A stretch of DNA of 64,000 bases, from NCBI RefSeq assembly GCF_000153765.1, contig NZ_DS022294.1:868836-932835 (forward strand). Reading direction: 5' to 3'. Both the position numbers and the translations under genes were made by a program. Shown here in pieces: positions 1,827 to 54,078 of this stretch (position 1 is its first letter; every line of letters starts with the position of its first letter). A model generated the notes under the pieces. It was not told the origin of the DNA. It was given only the letters and a program-made list of their open reading frames with translations, and did no database searches. The DNA is from Mariprofundus ferrooxydans PV-1 (GTDB lineage: Bacteria; Pseudomonadota; Zetaproteobacteria; Mariprofundales; Mariprofundaceae).

Positions 1827-3170
1827 ATGAACAGACCCCTTACCAGTAGTGATTTTGCCGCATGGTTTGCCGTCGGATGCAAGCCGCGAAACGAGTGGCG
1901 CATCGGCACAGAGCACGAGAAAATCGGTTTCTGCATGGATACATTCCGCCCCATTCCCTATGACGGAGAACGCAGCATACGCGCTGTTCTCGAACGCTTG
2001 GCGGGTGGCGAATGGGAAATCGTCAATGAGAACGGACAGCCCATTGCCCTGAAAAACGGCATGGCGTCGGTCACACTCGAACCCGGCGGCCAACTGGAAT
2101 TGTCCGGCGCGCCGCTGGATTCCATTCACGCGACCTGCCTGGAAACGACAGGCCACTTAAAGGCACTCAAAACCATCTCGGCAGAGTTGCGTATCGGCTT
2201 CCTCGGCATGGGTTTTCAGCCCCGTTGGGGCAGGGATGATATTCCATGGATGCCGAAAGAGCGCTATGCAGTAATGCGTCGTTATATGCCCCGTGTTGGC
2301 AATGGCGGACTGGATATGATGTTACGCACGGCCACGGTACAGGCCAACCTGGATTTCTCCAGCGAAGCGGATATGGCCAGAAAGATGCGTATTTCGCTCT
2401 GCCTGCAACCGCTGGTTACCGCCCTGTTTGCCGCCAGTCCGTTCGAGGCCGGCAAACCAACCGACTACCTCTCCCGGCGCGGCGCCTGCTGGCTGGATAC
2501 CGACCCGGCTCGCACCGGCATTCCCGCCTGCGCCTTTGAAGATGGTTTCGGTTTTCAGGCTTATACCGAATGGGCGCTGGATGCGCCGATGTATTTTGTC
2601 GTGCGGGATGGCCACTATATTGATTGTGCCGGCAACAGCTTCCGTGATTTCATGCACGGGCGCCTGCCACAAATGGCCGGGCAGTATCCCACCATGGATG
2701 ACTGGGAGCTGCATATCTCCACCCTGTTCCCCGACGTCCGACTTAAACAATATCTGGAAATGCGCGGCGCTGATGCCGGCCCATGGCCATGGATATGTGC
2801 ATTACCCGCCCTGTGGAAGGGATTGCTCTATGATGCCGAAGCCGAGCAGGCCGCCTGGGATATGATCCGTGACTGGACTCATGCCGAAGTGACTGCACTG
2901 CGTCAGGCCGTTCCGGCCACAGCCATGCGCACGCCATTCCGGGACGGCGATCTCCTGCCACTGTGTGAGCAGATGGTTGATATTTCACGGGCCGGGCTGG
3001 AGAGGCTCAACATCTGCAATGATGCGGGCGAGAATGAGGCACGCTTTCTGACACCGTTAATGTATGCGGTTGTATCCGGCCAGACCCAGGCCGATCGCTG
3101 GCTGGCCGCATGGCACAATGAGTGGCATGGCGATATATCCCGCGTCTTCGCCGATGCCATGCATCCGTAG
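1827..3170 (+). CDS. gshA: Glutamate-cysteine ligase (plant/alphaproteobacterial type)
   Basis: First enzyme of glutathione synthesis: ATP-dependent coupling of glutamate to cysteine in the cytosol. The 447-residue protein is the usual length of the GCS2 / plant-type class. It has the N-terminal WRIGTEHEKIGF motif, where the glutamates bind metal and substrate, then SVTLEPGGQLELSG, GMGFQPRW, and the PSNL-like stretch near residue 170 (VQANLDFSSEADM). The distal FRDGDLLP segment is also typical. The start at 1827 leaves a complete N-terminus. The glutathione-related theme returns at 51207 with a GFA domain, but the genes are far apart. No strong Shine-Dalgarno is obvious. Confidence 0.93.
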   Translation: MNRPLTSSDFAAWFAVGCKPRNEWRIGTEHEKIGFCMDTFRPIPYDGERSIRAVLERLAGGEWEIVNENGQPIALKNGMASVTLEPGGQLELSGAPLDSIHATCLETTGHLKALKTISAELRIGFLGMGFQPRWGRDDIPWMPKERYAVMRRYMPRVGNGGLDMMLRTATVQANLDFSSEADMARKMRISLCLQPLVTALFAASPFEAGKPTDYLSRRGACWLDTDPARTGIPACAFEDGFGFQAYTEWALDAPMYFVVRDGHYIDCAGNSFRDFMHGRLPQMAGQYPTMDDWELHISTLFPDVRLKQYLEMRGADAGPWPWICALPALWKGLLYDAEAEQAAWDMIRDWTHAEVTALRQAVPATAMRTPFRDGDLLPLCEQMVDISRAGLERLNICNDAGENEARFLTPLMYAVVSGQTQADRWLAAWHNEWHGDISRVFADAMHP

Positions 3171-3202
3171 GGTATAATTTCCCCTTTATATTTTTACAGG
3201 TA

Positions 3203-3231
3203 TTGGGAATAGTTGCCAAATCTCGTGATAT
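3203..3231 (+). promoter_or_regulatory. Possible sigma70-type promoter before the Rossmann-PAS-GGDEF gene
   Basis: TTGGGA (3203-3208) and TGATAT (3226-3231) are separated by exactly 17 bases, in a short AT-rich gap 30 bases ahead of the ATG at 3263. Match to consensus is moderate; no experimental support. Confidence 0.35.
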
Positions 3232-3262
3232 AACGGTGAAATACGCGCATAAAGGATCGGCA

Positions 3263-4525
3263 ATGACACAGGCATCTTCTGCAGCACATCCGATTCTGAT
3301 TCTTGGCGGCGGTCACGGCGGCACTGCTTTTCTGGAACTCTTGCGGGATGAAACACTGGTTCAGGTCATCGGCGTTTCCGACCCGGATCCGGCCGCCCCT
3401 GCCTTAGCTACGGCAAAAGCACTGAACATCCCGGTCTATAACAACGCCGAAGCGGCCCTGCGCGCCTGCCAGCCATGCACTGCTTTTAATCTGACCGGAG
3501 ATGAGTCTGTTTCGGAGCTGGCTGCAAGCATCATTGGCCCATGCAGTATCGTTGGCGGCTCCGAAACCCACCTGATCTGGAAAATCATCAGTCAGTTAAG
3601 AGATGCACAGGATGAGCTGCAAAGCAATCGGCTGTTAACCGAATCTATCGTCACTCATGCCATGGAAGGCATCATCCTGATTAACACCCTCGGGGTCATC
3701 AAGGCATTCAACCCGGCAGCCGAACGCATATTCGGCTACAGACTCGAGGAAGTGATCGAAAAAAATATCAGCATGCTCATGCCCGAGCCGCATCGATCAG
3801 AGCATGACAACTACCTGCAACGGTACATGCAGACCAAAGAGGCCCATGTTATCGGCATTGAAAGAGAACTGATTGCCAGACACAAAAGTGGCGAACCGAT
3901 CCACATCTCACTCTCGGTCAATGAAATGACATCCGGAAACGAGCACTACTTTGTCGGCATTGTTGCCGATATCTCCGAGAGAAAACGCAATGAAGCGGCG
4001 ATCCTCAAGCTCGCCCATTTCGATGCCAACACAGGTCTGCCGAACAGAACGCTCTTTTTTGACCGATTTACACATGCGCTTGCACAGGCAAAACGTTACG
4101 ACCAGCAGGTTGCCATTCTGTTTCTGGATCTGGATGGCTTCAAGGCGGTCAATGACACGCTTGGCCACGTCGCCGGCGACACGCTATTGCAGGAGGTGGC
4201 TGCCAGGTTGGTCAAAGCCATCCGTGAAGTGGATACGGTCGCCCGTTTCGGCGGCGATGAATTCGCCTTTATTCTGTACGATGTGACCACGGATCAGCAT
4301 ATGACTCAGGTTGTTGCTGACCGGATTCTGGCAGGGCTCGCCACCCCCTTTATCATTGATGGCATACCATGCCATATCGGCGGAAGCATCGGCATCTCCC
4401 TGTTCCCGGAAAACGCAACGGATATGGATGCACTGATCCATCAGGCCGATACAGCCATGTATGCGGCGAAAAATAGCGGCAAAAACCGCTACCTCTTCTA
4501 TGAACCGGATATGGTGCCGGAGTAA
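3263..4525 (+). CDS. Diguanylate cyclase with N-terminal Rossmann-like and PAS domains
   Basis: Predicted to make cyclic di-GMP from two GTP. Residues 1-110 look like a Rossmann nucleotide-binding module (ILILGGGHGGTAFLELL, then VIGVSDPDP), 125-245 form a PAS domain (MEGIILINTLGVIKAFNPAA), and 250-415 a GGDEF domain with intact RFGGDEF and an upstream RxxD (REVD) inhibitory site five residues before it. No membrane segments or signal peptide are seen, so it should be cytosolic. The start at 3263 has AAGGA six bases upstream; a longer frame reaches 3122 but would overlap gshA. The Rossmann head may sense a nucleotide cofactor, which is inference. Transcribed after gshA with a possible own promoter. 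Confidence 0.88.
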   Translation: MTQASSAAHPILILGGGHGGTAFLELLRDETLVQVIGVSDPDPAAPALATAKALNIPVYNNAEAALRACQPCTAFNLTGDESVSELAASIIGPCSIVGGSETHLIWKIISQLRDAQDELQSNRLLTESIVTHAMEGIILINTLGVIKAFNPAAERIFGYRLEEVIEKNISMLMPEPHRSEHDNYLQRYMQTKEAHVIGIERELIARHKSGEPIHISLSVNEMTSGNEHYFVGIVADISERKRNEAAILKLAHFDANTGLPNRTLFFDRFTHALAQAKRYDQQVAILFLDLDGFKAVNDTLGHVAGDTLLQEVAARLVKAIREVDTVARFGGDEFAFILYDVTTDQHMTQVVADRILAGLATPFIIDGIPCHIGGSIGISLFPENATDMDALIHQADTAMYAAKNSGKNRYLFYEPDMVPE

Positions 4526-6199: not shown

Positions 6200-8359
6200 G
6201 TGAAGCAATCCAAGATTCTTATCGTTGAAGATCAACAAACAATCAGGGAAGCATACGGTGAGCTGCTGGAGCATGCAGGGTTTCTGGTCTGTACAGCAGA
6301 GGACTACGACTCGGCAATCGCACTGATAGATGACTCGATAGACCTTGCCCTGCTTGATATCCAGCTGGTTGGAAAGTCGGGCCTGGAAATCCTCAGCTAT
6401 ATCCGCGGGCAGCAGCCTGCCTGCCCTGTCATTATGATGTCCGGCTACGCCGACAAGATAAACACCATTGAAGCCTTGCGTCAGGGCGCTGTCGAGTACC
6501 TGGAAAAACCGATTAATCCACATGAGTTGGTGCACAGCGTCAAACACTGGCTGGATTTTCGCAATCTGAAGCTGGAGAACCAGCGGCTACAGGATTTTCA
6601 GGCCATGCATCAACGGCTGCAGGAAAGTGAGGCGCAAATCCGCAAGGTCAACGAGCGATTGAATTTTTTACTCACCTCAACCGCCGCAGTCATTTATGCC
6701 TCGGATATATCCGAGCATTATGCCACGACGTTCATCAGCGATAATATCGAACGCCTGAGCGGCTACCCGGCCAATACCTTCACCGCCGAGGCGGATTTCC
6801 GCCTGGAGTGTGTACATCCGGATGATCTGGCAATGGTTCGTAACGAACTCAAACTAGCCCTGGATCGAGGCAGCAGTCGTTTTGAATACCGTTTTCAGCA
6901 CAAGGACGGCCACTACTTCTGGGTAGGCGATGAGGTCAGGGTCGAGAAAAACCGGCATGGGCAGCTGGAGTTTCTGGGTTTTATGGCCGACATCAGCGAA
7001 CACAAGCAGAATGAAGAGAAGGTCATCCAGATGGCCTATACCGACCTGCTTACAGGCCTGCCCAACCGCAGCCTATACTTTGACCGCCTGAAGCAGGCGA
7101 TTGCACAATCACACCGCAATCATACAACGATGGCTGTACTGTTTATGGATCTGGACTATTTCAAGCCGATCAATGATGAGCTGGGTCACGAATGGGGCGA
7201 TCAGGCCCTGATTGAAGTTGGCAAGAGGCTCCAGGGTTGCATTCGCGAGACCGATACACTGGCAAGGATCGGAGGCGATGAGTTCAGCATCATTCTGGGC
7301 GACATTGCCTCTGAACAAGCCGCCTGCCGTATAGCCGACAAGATCATTTCCTGCATCCAGGAGCCTATGCTCCTCAACCATTCCAGCTATGTGCTCGGTA
7401 TCAGTATTGGTATCCGCATTGAATCTTCTGATTACAGCGATGCAGAAACCTTCATGCGGCTGGCTGATGATGCGATGTATCAGGCCAAGGAGGCCGGGCG
7501 CAACCGTTGTTGCGTTTACCGCGAGTCCGGCGATACGCAGCTTCAGGGTCTGCACAGTGAACTCGATATGGAAAAAGCCCTGCGTCAGGCTCTGATCAAT
7601 AATGAGCTGGTGGTTTACTATCAACCCAAGGTGGACCTGAAAGAAGGATTGATCACCGGCACCCATGCACTGCTGCGTTGGGATCGGGGCAGCGAAGGCA
7701 TGCTACAGCCCGCCCAGTTTCTGCCATTGGCCAACAAAACAGGGCTGATTGTATCGATCGGCGAATGGGTGCTGCGTCAGGCCTCTGCCCAGATCAGAGC
7801 CTGGCTGGATGCGGGGCTGCAGGTCGTACCTGTCTCGGTAAACGTAACGGCTGAGCAGTTACGACATCCTGATTTCAGCCGACTGGTAGCAAGTATTCTC
7901 GATGAGTGCGCTCTCGCGCCCAACCTGCTCGAGCTGGAGGTCAGTGAGGCTGACCTGATGCGGCATGGCTCCTTTCTCACGCAGGCGCTGCATGATCTCA
8001 GTGATGTGGGTGTGAAAATAACCATGGGTAATTTTGGTTCCGGTTTTTTCTCGCTGGAGTCGCTGAAGGCGATGCCGATACACGAGTTGAAGATGGATCG
8101 CGCACTGATCGGAAAAATCGGGCACGCCGGAGACAGCGGTCAGGTCGCCAATGCCATTATTGCCATGGGGCATATCCTGAATCACCCGGTCGTAGCTGAA
8201 GGCGTGGAGACGCATGATCAGCTCTCATTTCTGCGCCATCATAACACCGATGGTATGCTGGGCTATCTCTCCAGCCCACCGGTCACGGCCGATGAAATCA
8301 CGTCGCATCTGACAAAAAGAGCATCACTGCTGGACGGCTGGATCAACAACCTTCTCTGA
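6200..8359 (+). CDS. Response regulator with PAS, GGDEF and degenerate EAL domains
   Basis: A 719-residue cytosolic signalling protein. REC domain about 1-120 with the phosphoacceptor Asp in LALLDIQL and EKPINP at the end; PAS about 155-275; GGDEF about 280-440 with intact RIGGDEF and an RETD inhibitory site; EAL-like about 455-710. The EAL domain has lost key residues: the signature reads THALLRW (Glu to His) and the usual DDFG metal-binding pair reads GNFG, although VVAEGVET is kept. It probably acts as a phosphorylation-controlled diguanylate cyclase whose EAL part is a sensor or inactive. The start is GTG at 6200 with GGGAGGAG upstream. No partner histidine kinase lies nearby. A strong terminator follows. 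Confidence 0.92.
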   Translation: MKQSKILIVEDQQTIREAYGELLEHAGFLVCTAEDYDSAIALIDDSIDLALLDIQLVGKSGLEILSYIRGQQPACPVIMMSGYADKINTIEALRQGAVEYLEKPINPHELVHSVKHWLDFRNLKLENQRLQDFQAMHQRLQESEAQIRKVNERLNFLLTSTAAVIYASDISEHYATTFISDNIERLSGYPANTFTAEADFRLECVHPDDLAMVRNELKLALDRGSSRFEYRFQHKDGHYFWVGDEVRVEKNRHGQLEFLGFMADISEHKQNEEKVIQMAYTDLLTGLPNRSLYFDRLKQAIAQSHRNHTTMAVLFMDLDYFKPINDELGHEWGDQALIEVGKRLQGCIRETDTLARIGGDEFSIILGDIASEQAACRIADKIISCIQEPMLLNHSSYVLGISIGIRIESSDYSDAETFMRLADDAMYQAKEAGRNRCCVYRESGDTQLQGLHSELDMEKALRQALINNELVVYYQPKVDLKEGLITGTHALLRWDRGSEGMLQPAQFLPLANKTGLIVSIGEWVLRQASAQIRAWLDAGLQVVPVSVNVTAEQLRHPDFSRLVASILDECALAPNLLELEVSEADLMRHGSFLTQALHDLSDVGVKITMGNFGSGFFSLESLKAMPIHELKMDRALIGKIGHAGDSGQVANAIIAMGHILNHPVVAEGVETHDQLSFLRHHNTDGMLGYLSSPPVTADEITSHLTKRASLLDGWINNLL

Positions 8360-10243: not shown

Positions 10244-10981
10244 TTAGTTGAATCCGTCTTTTGGGACACATGCTGTAACAAACAGCTTCCCAAAATCTGT
10301 TAACTGAATTTTTGTTTCTCTACGTGTGCCAATTTGATTTTGAGGGTTGTTGCCTGGTTCATATATGGGCGTTTGTTTCAGTACTGGCCAATTTACAAGT
10401 GACATTGATTCAAGGTGCGCATAATAAATACTTAGTGCTTCAGGATTAGCTAGATGCTCTTCAGGAACTGTGCTTGTTTCGATTTGACGATTTACAAACC
10501 TATTTTCCCTTTTATTAAGGTCCATCGTGTCAACAATTTCAAAGTCAGAACTATTGAGAGCCTGAAGCATAAATGCTTCATCTGGAGATAATTGCCCGAT
10601 AATATATCCAAATGCTGGGTGTACCTCTCCAATAGTTTCTTTATTAGATGCCTTAATTAACAATTCCTCAAACATAAGCCATAAAGGGTTGCTTACGTCT
10701 AGGTATTTCATTTTTTCTATGCAAACGGAGGAAAGTTCCGCAGGTATTTCAATAAGGTTTTCATCTGGAACAGATCGGTTTAGCTTTTCTAAAAAACTAG
10801 CAAAACGATCTTGAAACGATGCGGCGATTTGGATAGGTGCAAGGATCAAGCGAGCTGTTTTTGCTAGATCTTGACCCAGCTTCCCAAGTTCTATTGCTGC
10901 TGGACTTACACCGTCATCGTAAACCTTCTCAGCTACCTTTGAATTTATTACTTTTTCAATAACATCTATGTCGTTAGTCAT
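10244..10981 (-). CDS. Abi-alpha (DUF4393) family protein, cassette 4
   Basis: A 245-residue protein of the Abi-alpha / DUF4393 family. Recognisable family features are VAEKVYDDGVSPAAIELGK at the N-terminus, TARLILAPIQ with the following DRFASFLEKL, NPLWLMFEELLIKA in the middle, and HPAFGYIIGQLSPDEAFML. The family name comes from a weak link to abortive phage infection; a defence role is plausible but unproven. No membrane helix is obvious apart from one moderately hydrophobic stretch. The start at 10981 has GGAG seven bases upstream and lies 15 bases inside the cassette core; an extension to 11026 would cross attC3. The stop is three bases from attC4. Confidence 0.8.
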   Translation of the reverse strand: MTNDIDVIEKVINSKVAEKVYDDGVSPAAIELGKLGQDLAKTARLILAPIQIAASFQDRFASFLEKLNRSVPDENLIEIPAELSSVCIEKMKYLDVSNPLWLMFEELLIKASNKETIGEVHPAFGYIIGQLSPDEAFMLQALNSSDFEIVDTMDLNKRENRFVNRQIETSTVPEEHLANPEALSIYYAHLESMSLVNWPVLKQTPIYEPGNNPQNQIGTRRETKIQLTDFGKLFVTACVPKDGFN

Positions 10982-10995
10982 AATTTCTCCAAGGC

Positions 10996-11089
10996 AGCTA
11001 ACGTCGCAAATCACCGGCAGCCACAAGCTGCATAGCGAGGCACGAGCGACGCAGCTTTTGGCTGTCCGAGTGCATTTGCCTTGTTATAC
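10996..11089 (-). repeat. attC site of cassette 3
   Basis: Sense R'' GTATAAC (11089-11083), R' GTTAGCT (11002-10996). Long imperfect stem: GCAAAT pairs with ATTTGC, CAGCCA with TGGCTG, AAGCTGC with GCAGCTT. The longest of the four sites, 94 bp. Confidence 0.85.
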
Positions 11090-11094
11090 CTTGT

Positions 11095-11919
11095 TTAGTT
11101 TTTGTTGTAGCCAAATTTGCCTCTCGAAAGAAATACCTCTTTCCAGTAGCTTTCTCTTTCAATTATTACTTTGTCATCTGCTTTCATTGGACGATATTCA
11201 AGGAGTGATAATCTGAAATTGTCTTTCGCATAATCAAATCCTTCCGCTTTAATTAGTTTGGTAAGTTCGTCATTCCAACCATGCCCTGTACCAATATAGC
11301 AACCCCACCTCGACCAAATTCCAGAGTCACCGTAAGCAGATCCAATATACTTTTTACCATTTGATTTATCTGTTATTACGTAAACACCTTTTACATTCTT
11401 TAATGCTGCCTTCCAGTCTGCATTTTCATTTTTAAATATTGGTATCAATATATTGAAATCATGATTTATGTTTTCATATCCAGGAAACGCCTCTCCTGAA
11501 TAAGGCTGTTTCAGTATTTCTGAGACTTTCATTTTACCTAGATGATGTTCCAAGAAAAAAGCTCTTCCTCTAGATGGTTTTTCTAATTTTATTTTTAGTC
11601 TTCCAATATAATCAGAATATTCCTTTAGCTCCTTTATTTCATAGCTATGACTATCAGGAATATCGTTTCTCTTAACAACCTCATAGATACCGCCAAACAA
11701 CCACATATTATTTTCAGGGTAAAAGTCTATCAATGAGAATATATATTGGCGGGAAAATTCGTTTTTACTATTTCTCCAAGTATTCCAACCAAACCATTCC
11801 TTCTTGTCTCTCACATAAACGTCAAGGGGCTGATCACCACCATTCCAACGGGCAGCATGAAATTTGTATTTATTCGGTTCTTCAATTCTGATGATATTGG
11901 TGATTGGAATGTCGCTCAT
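11095..11919 (-). CDS. GIY-YIG nuclease family protein, cassette 3
   Basis: A 274-residue protein with a C-terminal GIY-YIG domain at about residues 175-270: KGVYVITDKSNGKKYIGSA carries the GVY and YIG elements, followed by the catalytic-type Arg in WSRW and a late Glu in the ESYWKE segment. The N-terminal 170 residues have no domain I recognise. GIY-YIG proteins cut DNA in repair, restriction or mobile introns; as a single cassette gene this could be a restriction or homing-type nuclease, which is inference. The start at 11919 has AAGGAAG upstream and is 17 bases from the 5' core. Base composition is AT-rich compared with chromosomal neighbours. Confidence 0.82.
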   Translation of the reverse strand: MSDIPITNIIRIEEPNKYKFHAARWNGGDQPLDVYVRDKKEWFGWNTWRNSKNEFSRQYIFSLIDFYPENNMWLFGGIYEVVKRNDIPDSHSYEIKELKEYSDYIGRLKIKLEKPSRGRAFFLEHHLGKMKVSEILKQPYSGEAFPGYENINHDFNILIPIFKNENADWKAALKNVKGVYVITDKSNGKKYIGSAYGDSGIWSRWGCYIGTGHGWNDELTKLIKAEGFDYAKDNFRLSLLEYRPMKADDKVIIERESYWKEVFLSRGKFGYNKN

Positions 11920-11935
11920 TCATGCTTCCTTTTGG

Positions 11936-12007
11936 GTATAACGTCCGAGCTGTGCTGCCGGAGAGAAGCGCAGCGTAACGAAGGTCAGAACAAGCGACTT
12001 GTTATAA
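11936..12007 (-). repeat. attC site of cassette 2
   Basis: Sense R'' TTATAAC (12007-12001), R' GTTATAC (11942-11936). The inner arms pair less well than in the other sites, but the cores match their partner cores exactly and the spacing (72 bp) is typical. Confidence 0.78.
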
Positions 12008-12011
12008 CTTG

Positions 12012-12539
12012 TCACTGTTCACCTTCATCTACTTTCCTTGCAACTTCAATTTGAGCACGTAATTCCTTAACCCTAAACTTTGTGGATTTGTATTCACGCC
12101 CAAGGGTATCTGATACAACGAAGCGAATTTCGTCTGAGTCCTTCAAATGACGACCAATTTGTGACTCAAAGTCGTTAAGATTGAGATCATTTTTAAATAC
12201 GCCGCCTGATTCTAGTTTGAATGGGTATTTGTTGGGATCGTTGACTTTAGCTGGATGAAATACTTGCTCACCATTAATTTTGCGAGAGATCCATATTTTA
12301 GGCTTTTCAATGAAGCGTTGAGTGGAACCTGTATTTTTAACTTTGACATAAATAATAGGTTTCGTGCCAGGTAAAAATTTATTTCCTTCACTAATTAATT
12401 CATGAGCAAAACCATGCTCAACAATTATCCTTGTTTTTGTATCGGCCAGTCGATTACGAAAAGCAAAAAGCAGCCCTAGAAAACCTATGCTAGCGCTAAA
12501 GATTATGATGTGGATTTTTTCGATTATTGGGAATTCCAT
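12012..12539 (-). CDS. Membrane-anchored protein of unknown function, cassette 2
   Basis: A 175-residue protein I do not recognise. One hydrophobic helix near residues 8-27 (IHIIIFSASIGFLGLLFAF) is followed by a basic stretch (RNRLADTKTR), suggesting an N-terminal inner-membrane anchor. The rest has an alternating pattern (PIIYVKVKNTGSTQRFIEKP) that resembles an immunoglobulin-like beta-sandwich, then a C-terminal charged helix. No catalytic motif is visible. No Shine-Dalgarno precedes the ATG at 12539, which lies 17 bases inside the core; expression may depend on read-through from cassette 1. Confidence 0.7.
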   Translation of the reverse strand: MEFPIIEKIHIIIFSASIGFLGLLFAFRNRLADTKTRIIVEHGFAHELISEGNKFLPGTKPIIYVKVKNTGSTQRFIEKPKIWISRKINGEQVFHPAKVNDPNKYPFKLESGGVFKNDLNLNDFESQIGRHLKDSDEIRFVVSDTLGREYKSTKFRVKELRAQIEVARKVDEGEQ

Positions 12540-12556
12540 AAGAGTTCAATTATGAG

Positions 12557-12604
12557 TTATAACGCCGCATTCAGCGGCTTGTCCGCTGTAATGCTTTGTT
12601 ATGT
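12557..12604 (-). repeat. attC site of cassette 1
   Basis: Shortest site, 48 bp. Sense R'' ACATAAC (12604-12598), R' GTTATAA (12563-12557). Arms GCATT/AATGC and CAGCGG/CCGCTG pair perfectly around a small loop, a textbook short attC. Confidence 0.88.
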
Positions 12605-12623
12605 GATACTTTGTAGTGGCGCA

Positions 12624-13367
12624 TTATTTCCCGTCCCTTTCGTTGATATGTTTTTTTGTTTCCTCTGGAACCACGTCGGAATAAAGCAGATCAAGTTCCT
12701 TTGGCTTTGAAATCATCTCATCGGCTATAAAATTAAGAACATGGAATAGCCTCAAGGCGATTTCTCGACCATCTTCGAGGTCGATCTGACCCGGATGCAC
12801 TGCGTTATTACCGACCACGCGAAGCAAATCCAACGCCTGTTGAATCTTTGGACTCAGTCCCTCTGCAACAAGAGCCTTAATATCATTATTGATGTTCTTT
12901 CCAGATTTGCCGAGCTGCTTAAGTAGTAACTGCAAGGCTAACCTCAATAACGCTGTAGCACCTTTAGGTGAATCAACTACGATGGTTGAGGCCTCAACGT
13001 ACAAATTCTGGATCTCTTGATCCATGTCCGCGTTAGGCGGAGCAACAGGCGTTTTCTTTGGGTATACGATTTCTTTTTCTACCCAGATTGATATATCTCC
13101 GCATGCTGAACAAGTGGCTACAGAAAAATCATCCGGGACAAACTCTGACATATGCCGATTGTTCGCTGATTCTACTTCCCCGATAAAACCCTCAATAGCC
13201 TTTTGTTGGTAACCTTGGATATGTTTTCTGTAGTCATAAAAGACATGCTTTAAAATATTATTTGCTGCTCCACTAGCATTGTCGACATCAAACCACCGTT
13301 GCTGCGATGCAACCAGACAATGTGGGCATTGAAATTTGTCACTTTTGAATTTTGGGGAAAGGTCCAA
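12624..13367 (-). CDS. DUF4145 domain protein with zinc-ribbon head, cassette 1
   Basis: A 247-residue protein. The C-terminal two thirds match the DUF4145 pattern (GATALLRLALQLLLKQLG, then LRVVGNNAVHPGQIDLEDG), a helical domain also found fused to nucleases and restriction proteins and thought to be a defence-associated module. The N-terminus has two CxxC pairs (CPHC near residue 14 and CSAC near 85) that could form a zinc ribbon. No catalytic motif is visible. The start is a TTG at 13367 with AGGAG eight bases upstream; no in-frame ATG fits. As the first cassette it lies closest to the putative promoter at 13484-13456. Confidence 0.8.
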   Translation of the reverse strand: MDLSPKFKSDKFQCPHCLVASQQRWFDVDNASGAANNILKHVFYDYRKHIQGYQQKAIEGFIGEVESANNRHMSEFVPDDFSVATCSACGDISIWVEKEIVYPKKTPVAPPNADMDQEIQNLYVEASTIVVDSPKGATALLRLALQLLLKQLGKSGKNINNDIKALVAEGLSPKIQQALDLLRVVGNNAVHPGQIDLEDGREIALRLFHVLNFIADEMISKPKELDLLYSDVVPEETKKHINERDGK

Positions 13368-48600: not shown

Positions 48601-50222
48601 GGGGAGAGCCCGAAAGGCACCAGCGACTCCTGTATCGGATCCAGTGCAAACAGGCGCAGGATGTCGACCAGCTGCCCCAGCGACGGCTGCTCAAGCGAAT
48701 AGATATGCAGCTGGGCAATCTCCCCGACAGAAGCCTTCTGGCTGACATGCACGCAGGTGCGGCCATTGGCCAGCAGGTGCTGACGCATTTTAACATCGCG
48801 AGTGTACTGGACAGGCGGAAACAGATCCTGATACAGTGACGGTACGCTCTCCAGCTCCTGCAGCGTATCGGGTATATTAAGGGTTGCGGCATGACGCAGC
48901 ACTTCCGCCTTAGCCAGATCTTTCCAGAATATGATACAGCGACGGATCAGGGCGCTGAGTTTTGCCGGCGCGATCTCTGCCCGTTCGCGTGCAATGCTAA
49001 TCAGAATAATGCGGTGAGGACCGATGCCGAATGAGTCATAGCCATGTACAGGTATGCCCGCATCGGCCAGCGAATCCATAACTCGCTGCATGACGACCGG
49101 CCCGAAACGTTTGGCCGCAATAGCCACCAGCAGGGTATCCAGATTACCACGCACAGACGGCAGGGTGTTGACGACCAGTTGCAGTGGATCCGCCAAGTCA
49201 ATAATCCCCTTTAACGGTTCCAACCAGTCTTCCGGCCGGGTAGCCAGCAGAATACGTTTTGGCATGCGGTCAAATAGCGTACGCACTTCACGTCGATAAA
49301 AGGCGGAGTGCTGCAACAGTGGATCGGTAGACAGTGCACGCCAGCGTGCCGCCAGCATGGGCAGGTAGCTGGCATTAGCGAAACGGGCGCTGCGGGAGAA
49401 GTGACCGATAATCAGCGCCTCTTCCAGTTGTCCGCCGGGAGCTGTCCAGCATATACGGACGACTTCGACACTGGCTGCGCTGTAGAGATAATGCTGACAG
49501 GCAGCCAGATTCAGCCATTCGAGGCCCGGCTCTTCTGCCGCTCCACATGCCTCAACCTCATCCGGCAGTCCGGGCATCACGCGTGCAAGTACATTTTTGT
49601 TGCATAGCAATCCCAGTCTCTTGTCATGCTGGGTAATACCGAAATAGAGATAATGATTGTCGTTTATCCAGTCCAGCATGGCGGCAGCGTCGGGGTTCTC
49701 CGGCATCAGGCGTGCCACATGGTGGCCGACATGCATACGCATGTCGGAAAAATCCTGCACAGAAAGGTCAACAGCCTTCAGAATCGCCTTGATATCGAGC
49801 CTGAGAGGTTCGGCGTCAGGCGTCAGTGTGGCGGAAATATGTATGGCGATAAACATGAAGTTGTCTTCGTCATGAATATCCGGTTTGTACAGCTCCAGCG
49901 CGCAACCGTCAGGACCGCAGGGCATGCGTGCGACCATGGTCTGCTGACCTATCGGCTGGATGCCCAGACGAAGCAGATAGCCCTTGATTGCATCCAGATA
50001 AAAGGCCTGATCAGGGCAACGGATGGTGAAAATATGGCGGTGCAGGTCACCATGGGTGAGCGTGCGGGCGCCCATCGCGATACGTTTCGTCTTGCCCTTT
50101 GGCAGCAGGGCATAGAAGTCCTGCACCAGTGCCGCCATCAATCTGGGCTGAACGCGACCCATAGCGTGCTGCAGGCGTGCCTGATCCAGTAGATCAATGA
50201 GCTGACGGCGTAGGTGGCGCAT
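45669..50222 (-). CDS. gdhB: NAD-specific glutamate dehydrogenase, large type
   Basis: Oxidatively deaminates glutamate to 2-oxoglutarate. The 1517-residue protein belongs to the 160-180 kDa bacterial NAD-GDH family: an N-terminal region with ACT-like parts, a central catalytic domain with [39 protein letters not shown]-type motifs (near 760-800), [14 protein letters not shown], and [16 protein letters not shown] with the nucleotide fold. Length is at the short end of the family. The ATG at 50222 lacks a good ribosome site, and the start overlaps that of the divergent radC frame, so the exact N-terminus is uncertain. The gene symbol follows common usage. Confidence 0.93.
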   Translation of the reverse strand: [1517 protein letters not shown]

Positions 50223-51006
50223 GGCTGTAGTCAACCATGTCCATGGCCCGATGTCGACTGATCTTAAGCCGGACGCTGCTACCAATGACGTCCTGTTTGA
50301 CGCAGAAACCTGTTTTCGCTTGCATGAGCTGATGGACGCGAGCATCAAGGGCCATCGGCAACGACTCCGGCAACGTTTTTCACAACGCGGTTTTGACGGC
50401 TTCCATGACTATGAGGTGCTGGAGCTACTGCTCACGTATGCCATTGCGCGCACCGATGTGAAGCCGCTGGCCAAGTCCCTGCTCACCCGATTCGGCACGC
50501 TGGCAGGCGTATTCGATGCGCCGTTGGCTGAGTTGAAAGAGGTTCATGGTATCGGTGAGGGCGGCGCGCTGTTTCTGACGTTGATACGTCAGGTTGAGGT
50601 GCGTTATCTGGCCTCTGATTTACCCGGCAGGCAGCTGCTTTATCGCCCCGAACGGGTCAGGGCATATCTGCGCCTGTTGGTTCAGGGCAGAGGCATGGAG
50701 TGTTTTGGCGCCATGTTTACCGACCAGCAGCACCGCTTGCTGACGACACAGATCCTGTTCGAAGGTACGGTGGACCGCACAGCCGTCTATCCGCGCAATC
50801 TGATGAAGCGGGCGCTGGAACTGGATGCCAGAGGTATGATTCTGTTTCACAATCATCCGGGCGGCACCCCGCATGCCAGTAACGAGGATATCGAGCTAAC
50901 CCGGCGTATGGCCGAGGCCTGTGCACCGCTTGAGCTTAAAATCCTCGATCATTTCCTCATTGCCGACAAGGAGGTCCTCTCATTCAGGGAGCATGGCTGG
51001 TTTTAA
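50221..51006 (+). CDS. radC: RadC family JAB/MPN-domain protein
   Basis: A protein of up to 261 residues with a helix-hairpin-helix region (DYEVLELLLTYAIARTDVKPLAKSLL, then VHGIGEGGALFL) and a C-terminal JAMM-type domain with the metal motif LFHNHPGGTPHASNEDI. RadC was once linked to DNA repair; its true activity is unknown. Three starts are possible: 50221 (AGGTGG close upstream, overlapping the divergent gdh ATG), 50251, and 50332; the conserved domain begins near GHRQRLRQRF after the last. Reading frame and family are certain, N-terminus is not. Confidence 0.92.
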   Translation: MAVVNHVHGPMSTDLKPDAATNDVLFDAETCFRLHELMDASIKGHRQRLRQRFSQRGFDGFHDYEVLELLLTYAIARTDVKPLAKSLLTRFGTLAGVFDAPLAELKEVHGIGEGGALFLTLIRQVEVRYLASDLPGRQLLYRPERVRAYLRLLVQGRGMECFGAMFTDQQHRLLTTQILFEGTVDRTAVYPRNLMKRALELDARGMILFHNHPGGTPHASNEDIELTRRMAEACAPLELKILDHFLIADKEVLSFREHGWF

Positions 51007-51107: not shown

Positions 51108-51206
51108 GGCGCAAGAAGTCAGAAGGCGGGGGCTCATGCGCCCGGGTAAGTGCAAATATAAGGCAGTCCCGGTCACCCGACCGAATCTGTCCGAATAGAG
51201 GTATCC

Positions 51207-52097
51207 ATGTTTACAGGCAGCTGCATGTGCGGACAGGTCAGGTATGAAGTACGCGGTGAAGCAGGGCCGATCACCCATTGTCACTGTCCGACCTGCCGCA
51301 AGGCACATGCCTCAGCCTTCTCTTCGGTGACCGCGGTAGAGGCCGGCGGCCTCATATTTACTGCCGGTGAAGCACTGCTGAAATTTTATGAGTCCTCACC
51401 GGGCAAACGACGCTACTTCTGTTCCAACTGCGGTTCACAAATTTATGCCAAACGCGATGAGCAGAGCCACTATATTCTCCGCATGGGTACGGTTGACGGC
51501 GACCCGGGCATACGACCGGCATGTCACATATTCACGCGCTACATGGCACCATGGTACGATATACACCACCACCTGCCCGAGCACCTCGAGTGGCCACCGA
51601 AGCAAGAGGAGGGCAGCCCTGCCATACCTGCCGAGTACGAAGAGCTCCATACGACCATGCAGGATGTTTTTCATCTGGCGACCAGAAAAGAGGCCTCCAC
51701 ATCGCTGCTGCTGATCATGATTAATATCGGTGAAGAGCGAACGGATACCCCACCGTACATTACAGATCTGATCTGTCGCAAGATTCAACTGAACGTACGT
51801 GATTCGGACACGGTCGTCACCATTGGCAATCACCGATTTGCCGTTCTTCTCCCCTATACCGATGCCAAAGCCTCACTCATTCTGGCCGAGCGCATTCGTA
51901 ATGCCATCAAGGGTACAGGGCAGCAGGCCATATCCGCCTGCATTGGTGCGGCCACACTTTCAGCCGATCAACTGGATCCGGCTGCCATGGTGGAGAGCAT
52001 GCATACGATTATTGCCAGAGCCGAACATGCATGCCGGGCATCGCAGCAGAAAGGCGGCGATAAAGTCACCCATTGTGATGCCCTGACGCCCCTTTGA
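51207..52097 (+). CDS. GFA-like zinc domain fused to a degenerate GGDEF domain
   Basis: A 296-residue cytosolic fusion. Residues 1-125 are a GFA (glutathione-dependent formaldehyde-activating / CENP-V) domain with zinc cysteines at 6, 8, 25, 27, 30, 72 and 75 (GSCMCG, THCHCPTC, FCSNCGS). Residues about 160-275 follow the GGDEF fold (IMINIGEERTD, LLPYTDAKASLILAERIRNAI, SACIGAATL). The active-site signature reads GNHRF at 207-211 instead of GGDEF, but the inhibitory RxxD motif is kept as RDSD at 198-201 with the normal five-residue spacing. It is unlikely to make c-di-GMP and could bind it. The GFA reaction is not certain in these proteins. AGAGG six bases upstream. Confidence 0.85.
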   Translation: MFTGSCMCGQVRYEVRGEAGPITHCHCPTCRKAHASAFSSVTAVEAGGLIFTAGEALLKFYESSPGKRRYFCSNCGSQIYAKRDEQSHYILRMGTVDGDPGIRPACHIFTRYMAPWYDIHHHLPEHLEWPPKQEEGSPAIPAEYEELHTTMQDVFHLATRKEASTSLLLIMINIGEERTDTPPYITDLICRKIQLNVRDSDTVVTIGNHRFAVLLPYTDAKASLILAERIRNAIKGTGQQAISACIGAATLSADQLDPAAMVESMHTIIARAEHACRASQQKGGDKVTHCDALTPL

Positions 52098-52305: not shown

Positions 52306-52533
52306 GTGGCAATGACTATTTCGCCAGCTGATGGTTTTATTTCGCGTCTGTTACAACAGACACGGCAGACTGCGCCCGCAAAAGCGCCCACAACAGCTAC
52401 TTCGCAAGGCTTCAAACCGGATCAGACCTCGATCTCCCCGGAAGCCCGCCAGGCCATTCAGGGTTCAAATCACCAGAGTATGGAGTCAAAACTGCTGGAT
52501 TTGTATAATCAGAAAGGCAATCGCAACGCTTAG
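52306..52533 (+). CDS. Small protein of unknown function under a flagellar-type promoter
   Basis: A 75-residue hydrophilic protein with no recognised domain. An N-terminal MTISPADGFISRLLQQTR helix, a Thr/Ala/Pro linker, and a PDQTSISPEARQAIQG segment resembling the short motifs seen in flagellar and FlgM-type small proteins. The start is probably GTG 52306, six bases after AAGGAGGAG; ATG 52312 is also possible. A sigma28-like promoter precedes it. Its end overlaps the convergent GAF-PAS-GGDEF gene by a few bases. Function unknown; a motility or signalling link is inferred only from the promoter and neighbours. Confidence 0.7.
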   Translation: MAMTISPADGFISRLLQQTRQTAPAKAPTTATSQGFKPDQTSISPEARQAIQGSNHQSMESKLLDLYNQKGNRNA

Positions 52534-53969
52534 TCGCTGTTTTTCGACTGGTGAAAGCAGTAGCAGTTTCTGCCACCATGTTTGGCTCTGTACATGGCAT
52601 TATCCGCCGCAGTAATTAACAGGTCGCAACTCGTACTATCCTCAGGATAAATCGCAATGCCCATACTCATCGTCACCTGGTGACCCGCTCCCACATCCTC
52701 ATACGGGGCCGAGATGGCTTCGATCAGTTTCCATGCTACCAGTTCAACCGTATCCCGCGTATGTACATCATCCAGAATAATCGCGAACTCGTCACCGCCC
52801 ATGCGTGCCACAGTATCCACTTCGCGTACGTTCGCTCGCAGGCGGTGTGCCGTTTGCACCAGCAGGTTATCACCCGCCTGATGGCCCAGGTGATCGTTCA
52901 CAGCCTTGAATCCATCCAGATCAAGATACATGACGGCAAACTGTTTCTGATGACGCTTTGAGTACGCCAAGGTCTGACTCAGCCGGTCATGAAACAGAGC
53001 TCGATTGGCAAGCCCTGTCAGCGCGTCGAAATGCGCCATCATCATCAGCCTCTCTTCGTAAGCCTTGCGTTCGCTGATGTCGTAAACAACCCCCTGCAAA
53101 TAGAGGTCCTGATCATGATCCCGAACCGTAGCGGCAGCATCCTTCACCCAGAGATAGCTGCCATCTTTTGCATATATCCTGTATTCGGCATGAAAGGGGA
53201 TCTTCGCATTCAGGCTCTGGTGCACCTCAGAGAGTACCCGCTCACGATCCTCCGGATGAATTTGTTGTGACCATATTTCCTGATTAGCCAGAAAATCATC
53301 CTGTCTATAACCCAGTATATCCTCGACCTGCGGGCTGACAAACAGGATTCGACTGCGATCGAGCGTGGCGATATAAGTGATGGCGGGAATCTGCTCTACC
53401 AACGTGCGGTAGGTGGCTACCGATTTTTCCAGATCAGCCTCGACTCTTCTCTTTTCTGACTGCTGGATGGCATTTTCAATGGCAACCGTCATCATGGTTG
53501 CCAGCTTTTCCAGCAGGACGACCTCACTGGCGGCAAGCCGGCTTGCCGCGTCGGCAAACAGCAGCAAACAGCCGAGAAGATCATGCTCTTTGCCGATGAC
53601 CGGCACCACAGCCAGCTGCTCTGTTGCCGGAAAACAGTGGCCTGTTTGCTCGGCAAATGCATCCATCTCATCAGATTCGCGAATCACGAACGAGCGTTGG
53701 TTTGCCATCAGCTCGCGCACCCAGCCGGCTTCATCACCAAACCTGCATGGCAGCGGCTGCCGCCGATCACCCTTGACGTATTCGGTGAAAGCCAGACAGC
53801 CATCCATCATCAGGGCCGCGGCACCAGCATTGGCATCAACCAGTTGCACGGCTGTCAGCATGCCAACCTGCAAAATAGCAGGAATATCAATCGAGCCATG
53901 CATACGGTTGCTGGCGTCAGCAATCAGCGATAACAATGCTGTATGGCTTTGTTGCGCCTGGCTGGACAT
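52530..53969 (-). CDS. GAF-PAS-GGDEF diguanylate cyclase
   Basis: A 479-residue cytosolic sensor. GAF domain about 15-165 (ILQVGMLTAVQLVDANAGA), coiled linker, PAS/PAC domain about 185-310 (IPAITYIATLDRSRILFVSPQV ... GVVYDISERK), GGDEF about 315-475 with intact RMGGDEF and an REVD inhibitory site five residues before. Predicted to make c-di-GMP under control of a small ligand or redox signal. GGAGG before the ATG at 53969 sets the start. The fourth GGDEF-fold gene in the window, next to the inactive GFA-GGDEF fusion. Confidence 0.93.
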   Translation of the reverse strand: MSSQAQQSHTALLSLIADASNRMHGSIDIPAILQVGMLTAVQLVDANAGAAALMMDGCLAFTEYVKGDRRQPLPCRFGDEAGWVRELMANQRSFVIRESDEMDAFAEQTGHCFPATEQLAVVPVIGKEHDLLGCLLLFADAASRLAASEVVLLEKLATMMTVAIENAIQQSEKRRVEADLEKSVATYRTLVEQIPAITYIATLDRSRILFVSPQVEDILGYRQDDFLANQEIWSQQIHPEDRERVLSEVHQSLNAKIPFHAEYRIYAKDGSYLWVKDAAATVRDHDQDLYLQGVVYDISERKAYEERLMMMAHFDALTGLANRALFHDRLSQTLAYSKRHQKQFAVMYLDLDGFKAVNDHLGHQAGDNLLVQTAHRLRANVREVDTVARMGGDEFAIILDDVHTRDTVELVAWKLIEAISAPYEDVGAGHQVTMSMGIAIYPEDSTSCDLLITAADNAMYRAKHGGRNCYCFHQSKNSD

Positions 53970-54078
53970 ATGCACCCTCCTTCCCCCGCCGAAATCATCA
54001 GCATAAACAGAGTAAAGCAATTATCATTCCAAAAAAGGAAACAGGACCAATATCGCCCCTGTATATACGACTATATGG

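Follow-up and report, generated by a model that had tools for sequence, protein, structure and literature searches.

A GFA domain joined to a degenerate GGDEF domain in Mariprofundaceae: a candidate c-di-GMP receptor

Introduction

The function of GFA domains is unsettled, and the locus described here raises the question of what such a domain does when it is joined, in a single polypeptide, to a GGDEF fold that has lost its active site. A natural allosteric switch attached to a GFA domain would make the question of GFA function testable. An earlier, sequence-only reading of this gene had proposed precisely such a pairing, with the catalytic motif replaced and the inhibitory site (I-site) kept, and knew of no described protein of this kind; none was found in the open-licence literature searched for a published GFA-GGDEF protein. 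The proposed architecture, with its active site lost, is borne out by Pfam, fold and column comparisons, which agree. Our results suggest a family of proteins of marine iron-oxidising bacteria in which a GFA zinc-thiol domain is linked to an inactive GGDEF domain that keeps the residues for sensing c-di-GMP, i.e., a new type of target for this second messenger.

The fusion gene and its GFA half

The gene is found at 51207..52097 on the forward strand of the window (the whole stretch of 64 kb that was analysed), reads from an ATG and codes for 296 aa; by eye, a Shine-Dalgarno-like AGAGGT precedes it at 51197..51202 on the same strand, as are all the features of the protein given below. The product is made up of a GFA domain (residues 1-111, 51207..51539), a variable linker (residues ~134-141, 51606..51629) that is gapped in the alignment and forms the block of lowest pLDDT (70) in the predicted structure, and a degenerate GGDEF fold (residues 142-292, 51630..52082) recognised by Pfam, profile matches and the predicted structure.

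The GFA match (PF04828) reached 91.8 bits against a cut-off of 24.3 (E 4e-26). The fold match extends to residue 134, with residues 1-134 of the model aligning to 8ajq (Z 17.4, rmsd 2.1, 124 aligned), and Foldseek gave an E of 7.7e-7 for the GFA half against 1x6m_A. The seven zinc-type cysteines that had been read from the sequence (C6, C8, C25, C27, C30, C72 and C75, 51222..51431), spaced 2+3+2, turned out to be invariant in the alignment of all 13 fusion proteins. Their pattern is that described for the Gfa of Paracoccus, in which zinc is held by four plus three cysteines (PMC4682968). The Paracoccus protein bound glutathione with a KD of 500 uM, and adduct formation was not catalysed under standard conditions (PMC4682968). 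The score of the fusion protein with the Gfa equivalog model TIGR02820 was 35.5 bits, missing the cut-off of 234.55. The protein is thus a member of the GFA fold family that falls below the threshold for a Gfa equivalog. As for PA2722, the protein of 8ajq, the one mention found in the literature searched was in work on another protein.

A GGDEF fold in the C-terminal half

The GGDEF match (PF00990) covers residues 190-275 and just passes its threshold (24.2 bits vs a cut-off of 23.8, E 3.3e-5; 25.9 in a second run). TIGR00254 scored 28.7, below its cut-off of 37.4, and PelD_GGDEF (PF16963) 17.9, also below (27 bits), with no GAF match; by these profile and GAF tests the fusion protein is not PelD. 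Since the single-sequence GGDEF score is marginal, the assignment was tested in three further ways. First, the C-terminal halves of the fusion proteins matched PF00990 in 12 cases out of 12, with E-values of 1 or lower and a best value of 8.9e-9. Second, a profile of the 12 aligned halves matched the c-di-GMP-bound GGDEF structure of Marinobacter, 3ign, at E 2.2e-14. Third, the AlphaFold model (mean pLDDT 93.3, from a 30-row alignment) contains the GGDEF fold that the sequence-only reading had expected: residues 142-292 superimposed on 3i5c_B with Z 20.1 and rmsd 2.6 over 146 aligned residues, many other structures exceeded Z 18, and the fold matches included the c-di-GMP-bound 5euh, 3ign and 6tts. 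The pTM was 0.64, so that the mutual placement of the GFA and GGDEF halves is not confidently predicted. The C-terminal half of the query shares only 34-49% identity with those of the other fusions, and 17 positions are invariant across the 12 diverged copies. The assignment to GGDEF is well beyond chance, and the half belongs to this fold family, without being, to judge by its sequence, a diguanylate cyclase.

Distribution and origin of the fusion

Full-length, intact copies were present in 13 of the 78 genomes of the class (own genome included), all of them Mariprofundaceae, and chance or artefact was rejected on this ground. Twelve belong to the same genus (12 of its 23 genomes, own included) and the thirteenth, G066, to another genus of the family. 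The relatives that carry a title come from Mariprofundus (among them M. micogutta ET2, M. erugo P3 and the strain KV) and from Zetaproteobacteria. The fusion is missing from several genomes of the genus, including G007, G011 and the two that consist of one contig, G001 (2.5 Mb) and G003 (2.3 Mb). Pelagic dread formation has been described for M. aestuarium CP-5 and M. ferrinatatus CP-8, whose genomes were then the sole closed ones (PMC5513912). Close relatives of 124-136 residues consisting of the GFA part were found in Ghiorsea and other genera of the family. In Mariprofundus OFTM123 (G012, locus L046, 6001-6393) the GFA half is 73% identical and the protein stops directly after it; no GGDEF half could be recognised in the sequence read beyond that point. 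This is an apparent secondary loss, and it indicates that the extension is dispensable.

Among the best 80 of 227 relatives, 11 were GFA-GGDEF fusions, all from Zetaproteobacteria, 68 had 112-148 residues, and there was one other long ORF. The latter (L082:2854-4008, from a Pseudogulbenkiania MAG) carries a C-terminal extension of ~250 residues after the GFA part, nitrilase-like by eye. No fusion outside Mariprofundaceae appeared among 398 sampled genomes of the phylum, a search in which at most six candidates were scored per genome at E up to 1e-40, so that a fusion whose GFA half is only distantly related may have escaped it. Of 13 long open frames chosen by eye among the matches listed from 249 genomes, the nine that were read all ended soon after the GFA part, and none of 142 matching plasmid records covered 80% of the query. 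Across the genomes searched, and at the thresholds used, the fusion is restricted to Mariprofundaceae. Nor is the pairing a common one across the collections of genomes, loci and plasmid records covered.

In a tree of 49 GFA halves, 11 of the 12 fusions formed one set (99/98) together with the GFA-only protein of OFTM123, beside the GFA proteins of Ghiorsea. The most divergent fusion, that of M. erugo P3 (L048, 6001-6819; 42% identity), has its GFA half outside this clade, and because it sits apart on a very long branch the tree needs three label changes. A single origin of the fusion is likely from these sequences, short of proof.

Loss of the catalytic site and retention of the I-site

The position of the GGDEF motif is occupied by GNHRF (residues 207-211, 51825..51839), as the sequence-only reading had it, and the family has no conserved motif there. 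A GGDEF-like motif was seen in none of the 13 fusion proteins, and on sequence an active diguanylate cyclase was rejected. In addition, the first metal-binding aspartate column after strand 1 was kept in 0 of 12, and the ND..GH..GD region was mostly gapped or unconserved. Lacking the metal-binding aspartates, the NDxxGHxxGD region and the GGDEF motif, the domain should no longer be capable of c-di-GMP synthesis.

The I-site motif RDSD (residues 198-201, 51798..51809; RxSD in 13/13) does stand at the distance claimed for it, separated from GNHRF by five residues. An RxxD was also present in 28 of 30 other GGDEF domains of the same genome (those fetched of 34 others). Eight of these have an active-site motif other than GG(D/E)EF, and six of the eight, as read from the table, keep RxxD. 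The motif is near-universal in this genome and its presence by itself says little; after this control it was rejected as sufficient evidence.

A more discriminating comparison used the columns of the 30 control domains. A column was counted as conserved when a single residue occurred in 21 or more of the 30; there were 40 such columns, of which 20 were polar or charged. Five of the 40 were kept in all 12 fusion proteins, namely the R and D of the I-site and three core positions (L215, G247 and A272), with one further A column kept in 11 of 12. The polar columns kept in 12/12 were two of 20, exactly the I-site R and D. Those lost from the 40 include the opening D-LTGL-NR, the two aspartates that follow strand 1, the FK, ND, GH and GD positions, R-GGDEF in both its R and its motif, and a K close to the C-terminal end. 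The chance of drawing the I-site pair at random from 20 polar columns is 1 in 190; this is approximate, since the rows share ancestry and the test was settled on once the data had been seen.

A third residue, which had gone unmentioned in the sequence-only reading, reinforces its claim of a selectively kept I-site. This is R229 (51891..51893), arginine in 13/13 and within a conserved AER-I-R context, which we take to be the counterpart of PleD R390, since in PleD the residue likewise follows the first I-site arginine by 31 residues. That column holds R in all 12 fusion proteins, whereas among the 30 other domains only 8 have R there and 16 have K. In a larger alignment R198, S200, D201, E228 and R229 were invariant in 13/13 rows. 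The PleD site consists of R359, D362 and R390, joined by R313 from the other chain (PMC7288161); R390 is an extra contact, and its equivalent in DgcR is too distant to interact (PMC8041772). R160 (51684..51686; R in 10/13, K in 3/13), which aligns with the arginine of the usual A-x-R, is possibly the counterpart of PleD R313; this pairing is uncertain because the arginines contributed by the second chain lack homology between DgcR and PleD (PMC8041772). A tyrosine, Y217 (51855-51857), in an LLPYT stretch just past a strand of the GGDEF fold and beside the I-site, is invariant as well (13/13).

Taken at the level of sequence, the I-site has been selectively retained while the catalytic signatures were lost, and the fusion protein has the features of a degenerate-GGDEF I-site receptor for c-di-GMP. 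However, R and D could have been kept for packing. The alternative that survives best, and that we regard as unlikely, develops this idea: the GGDEF half would be a structural, dimerisation or docking module in which R198, D201 and R229 serve packing or a protein partner and no nucleotide is bound. The invariance of the core residues L215, G247 and A272 suits such a module, the unusual Y217 of LLPYT could mark a protein interface, and the absence of the half from one genome speaks for its dispensability. Yet packing fails to explain why the I-site R and D are kept in 12/12 while 0 of the 18 other polar columns are.

Genomic and metabolic context

Upstream of the fusion gene lies radC (50221-51006). 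Downstream there is a 75-residue ORF on the same strand (52306-52533, no Pfam match at E up to 0.01), followed on the opposite strand by a gene for a GAF-PAS-GGDEF cyclase (52530-54020); the end of the small ORF overlaps the stop of the latter. An all-against-all ORF comparison of 12 related loci and the window revealed no neighbour common to most of them, and the pathway is therefore not given by genomic context, with the caveat that the loci are cut by contig ends to differing lengths and the absence of a neighbour is weak evidence. In strain KV, a gene for a protein with four CBS domains, PAS, histidine kinase and receiver is found on the reverse strand divergently upstream of the fusion gene (L039:1855-4263), and related genes adjoin locus L040 and the locus of OFTM123. 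Elsewhere in the window (10244-13367, reverse strand), genes for an Abi_alpha protein (PF14337), a GIY-YIG protein and a DUF4145 protein are clustered in a possible phage-defence island.

The 3.0 Mb genome has 35 PF00990 matches, counting the fusion protein, which scores lowest, so c-di-GMP is very probably present. Three further GGDEF genes are located in the window, at 3122-4525, 6200-8359 and 52530-54020. A pan-genome study of the Zetaproteobacteria covers c-di-GMP and GGDEF genes, and its main text makes no reference to glutathione or formaldehyde (PMC8250860).

With so many potential GGDEF partners, signal flow might be reversed. Thiols, zinc or an aldehyde would then be sensed by the GFA half, and the dead GGDEF half would relay this by pairing with the cell's active diguanylate cyclases. 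The GGDEF half is C-terminal in the fusion, as GGDEF domains normally are with respect to sensor domains, and E. coli DgcZ is a zinc-sensory diguanylate cyclase (from a title cited in PMC7288161). However, an invariant I-site is not needed for pairing with a partner, and no cyclase gene is a conserved neighbour, which leaves this reading improbable.

The sequence-only reading had also proposed a thiol or aldehyde-related role, and here its two parts fared differently. The thiol part is plausible, as the window encodes a glutamate-cysteine ligase (1827-3170; PF04107, 257.3 bits) and a gamma-glutamyl thiol is thus probably made. The aldehyde part fared worse. In the genome the best AdhC score was 45.4 bits, not reaching the cut-off of 543.95, and FghA gave no match, so that the usual fate of the glutathione-formaldehyde adduct is missing. 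A role in formaldehyde oxidation is weakened by these absences and by the TIGR02820 score.

Selection on the C-terminal half

Two pairs of loci were close enough for dN/dS, dS being high or saturated in the others. For the C-terminal half the values were 0.08 (L009/L010) and 0.20 (L011/L013), and for the GFA half 0.13 and 0.16, respectively. In the other pairs the C-terminal half evolved faster than the GFA half. The low values in close pairs indicate that the C-terminal half is under purifying selection and is maintained, if under looser constraint. The view that it is a decaying remnant without function, to which its faster evolution, the loss of all catalytic motifs and its absence from G012 would lend themselves, is largely refuted by this test, as well as by the 13 intact copies and the 17 positions invariant in 12 diverged ones, and we consider it very improbable. 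Even less credible is a former active site that still binds a nucleotide such as GTP, as reported for the degenerate GGDEF domain of Caulobacter CC3396 (PMC7288161). The predicted persistence of the whole fold is in its favour; against it, none of the aspartate column for metal binding, the ND/GH/GD region and the GGDEF loop is conserved in the 12 proteins, where they vary or are deleted.

Proposed function

The reading that we prefer, by a little more than an even chance, is that of a catalytically dead receptor with a PelD-like I-site for c-di-GMP and the GFA half as its output. In PelD of B. cereus, the nearest experimental parallel, a degenerate GGDEF domain binds c-di-GMP with a KD of 103 nM, and changes at R363, D366 or R395 left no detectable binding (PMC7112168). 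By analogy, the C-terminal half of the fusion protein would be the c-di-GMP sensor and the GFA half the output. That the C-terminal half binds c-di-GMP is probable from its I-site residues; whether such binding regulates the GFA half we would put as evenly balanced. When c-di-GMP is high, i.e., during sessile, biofilm-like growth, a dimer of the nucleotide would occupy R198, D201 and R229 and would clamp two GGDEF halves together, or hold one half in another position. This clamping would alter either the oligomeric state or how accessible the zinc-thiol centre in the GFA half is. The GFA half, in turn, would bind a low-molecular-weight thiol, perhaps glutathione, or store or carry zinc or thiol. 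The role of the GFA half is the weakest link of the proposal; here we prefer storage or carriage of this kind to formaldehyde chemistry.

More broadly, and with slightly less assurance, the iron oxidisers of the Mariprofundus type may have evolved a class of c-di-GMP effectors whose zinc-thiol GFA domain is under the control of a dead GGDEF domain. Sessile growth with stalk building would thereby be coupled directly to the intracellular pool of thiol or zinc. Most known outputs of degenerate-GGDEF receptors concern secretion, motility or exopolysaccharides, and a soluble zinc-thiol output would extend the control by c-di-GMP to the redox or metal physiology of iron-oxidising bacteria. If the proposal holds, this would be, to our knowledge, the first protein of the GFA/CENP-V fold under second-messenger control, and would provide a handle on the function of GFA domains.

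Comparison with known systems

The N-terminal half has the fold and the seven cysteines of the Gfa of Paracoccus denitrificans and of the GFA/CENP-V family (1x6m, and 8ajq, which is PA2722). Unlike Gfa, the fusion protein falls below the TIGR02820 cut-off and its genome is without an AdhC or FghA partner above cut-offs, and unlike most GFA relatives (68 of the best 80 of 227) it does not end at the GFA part. The PelD proteins of Pseudomonas and Bacillus likewise have a GGDEF fold without the catalytic motif, and the triad R363, D366 and R395 of B. cereus (PMC7112168) corresponds to R198, D201 and R229 here. However, PelD has a GAF domain and is encoded in exopolysaccharide operons, whereas the fusion has a GFA partner and no such operon adjacent. 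An I-site of the R359/D362/R390 type is also found in the active cyclases PleD, WspR and MqR89a (3ign) (PMC7288161), but there it serves the feedback inhibition of the enzyme, while in the fusion protein no enzyme is left to be inhibited. Finally, an ammonium transporter with a GGDEF domain (8qj3, 8qj4 and 8qpf), to judge by title and alignment range, likewise carries a GGDEF-like domain on a protein that is not itself a signalling one. There the partner is a transporter, and in the proteins described here it is a GFA domain.
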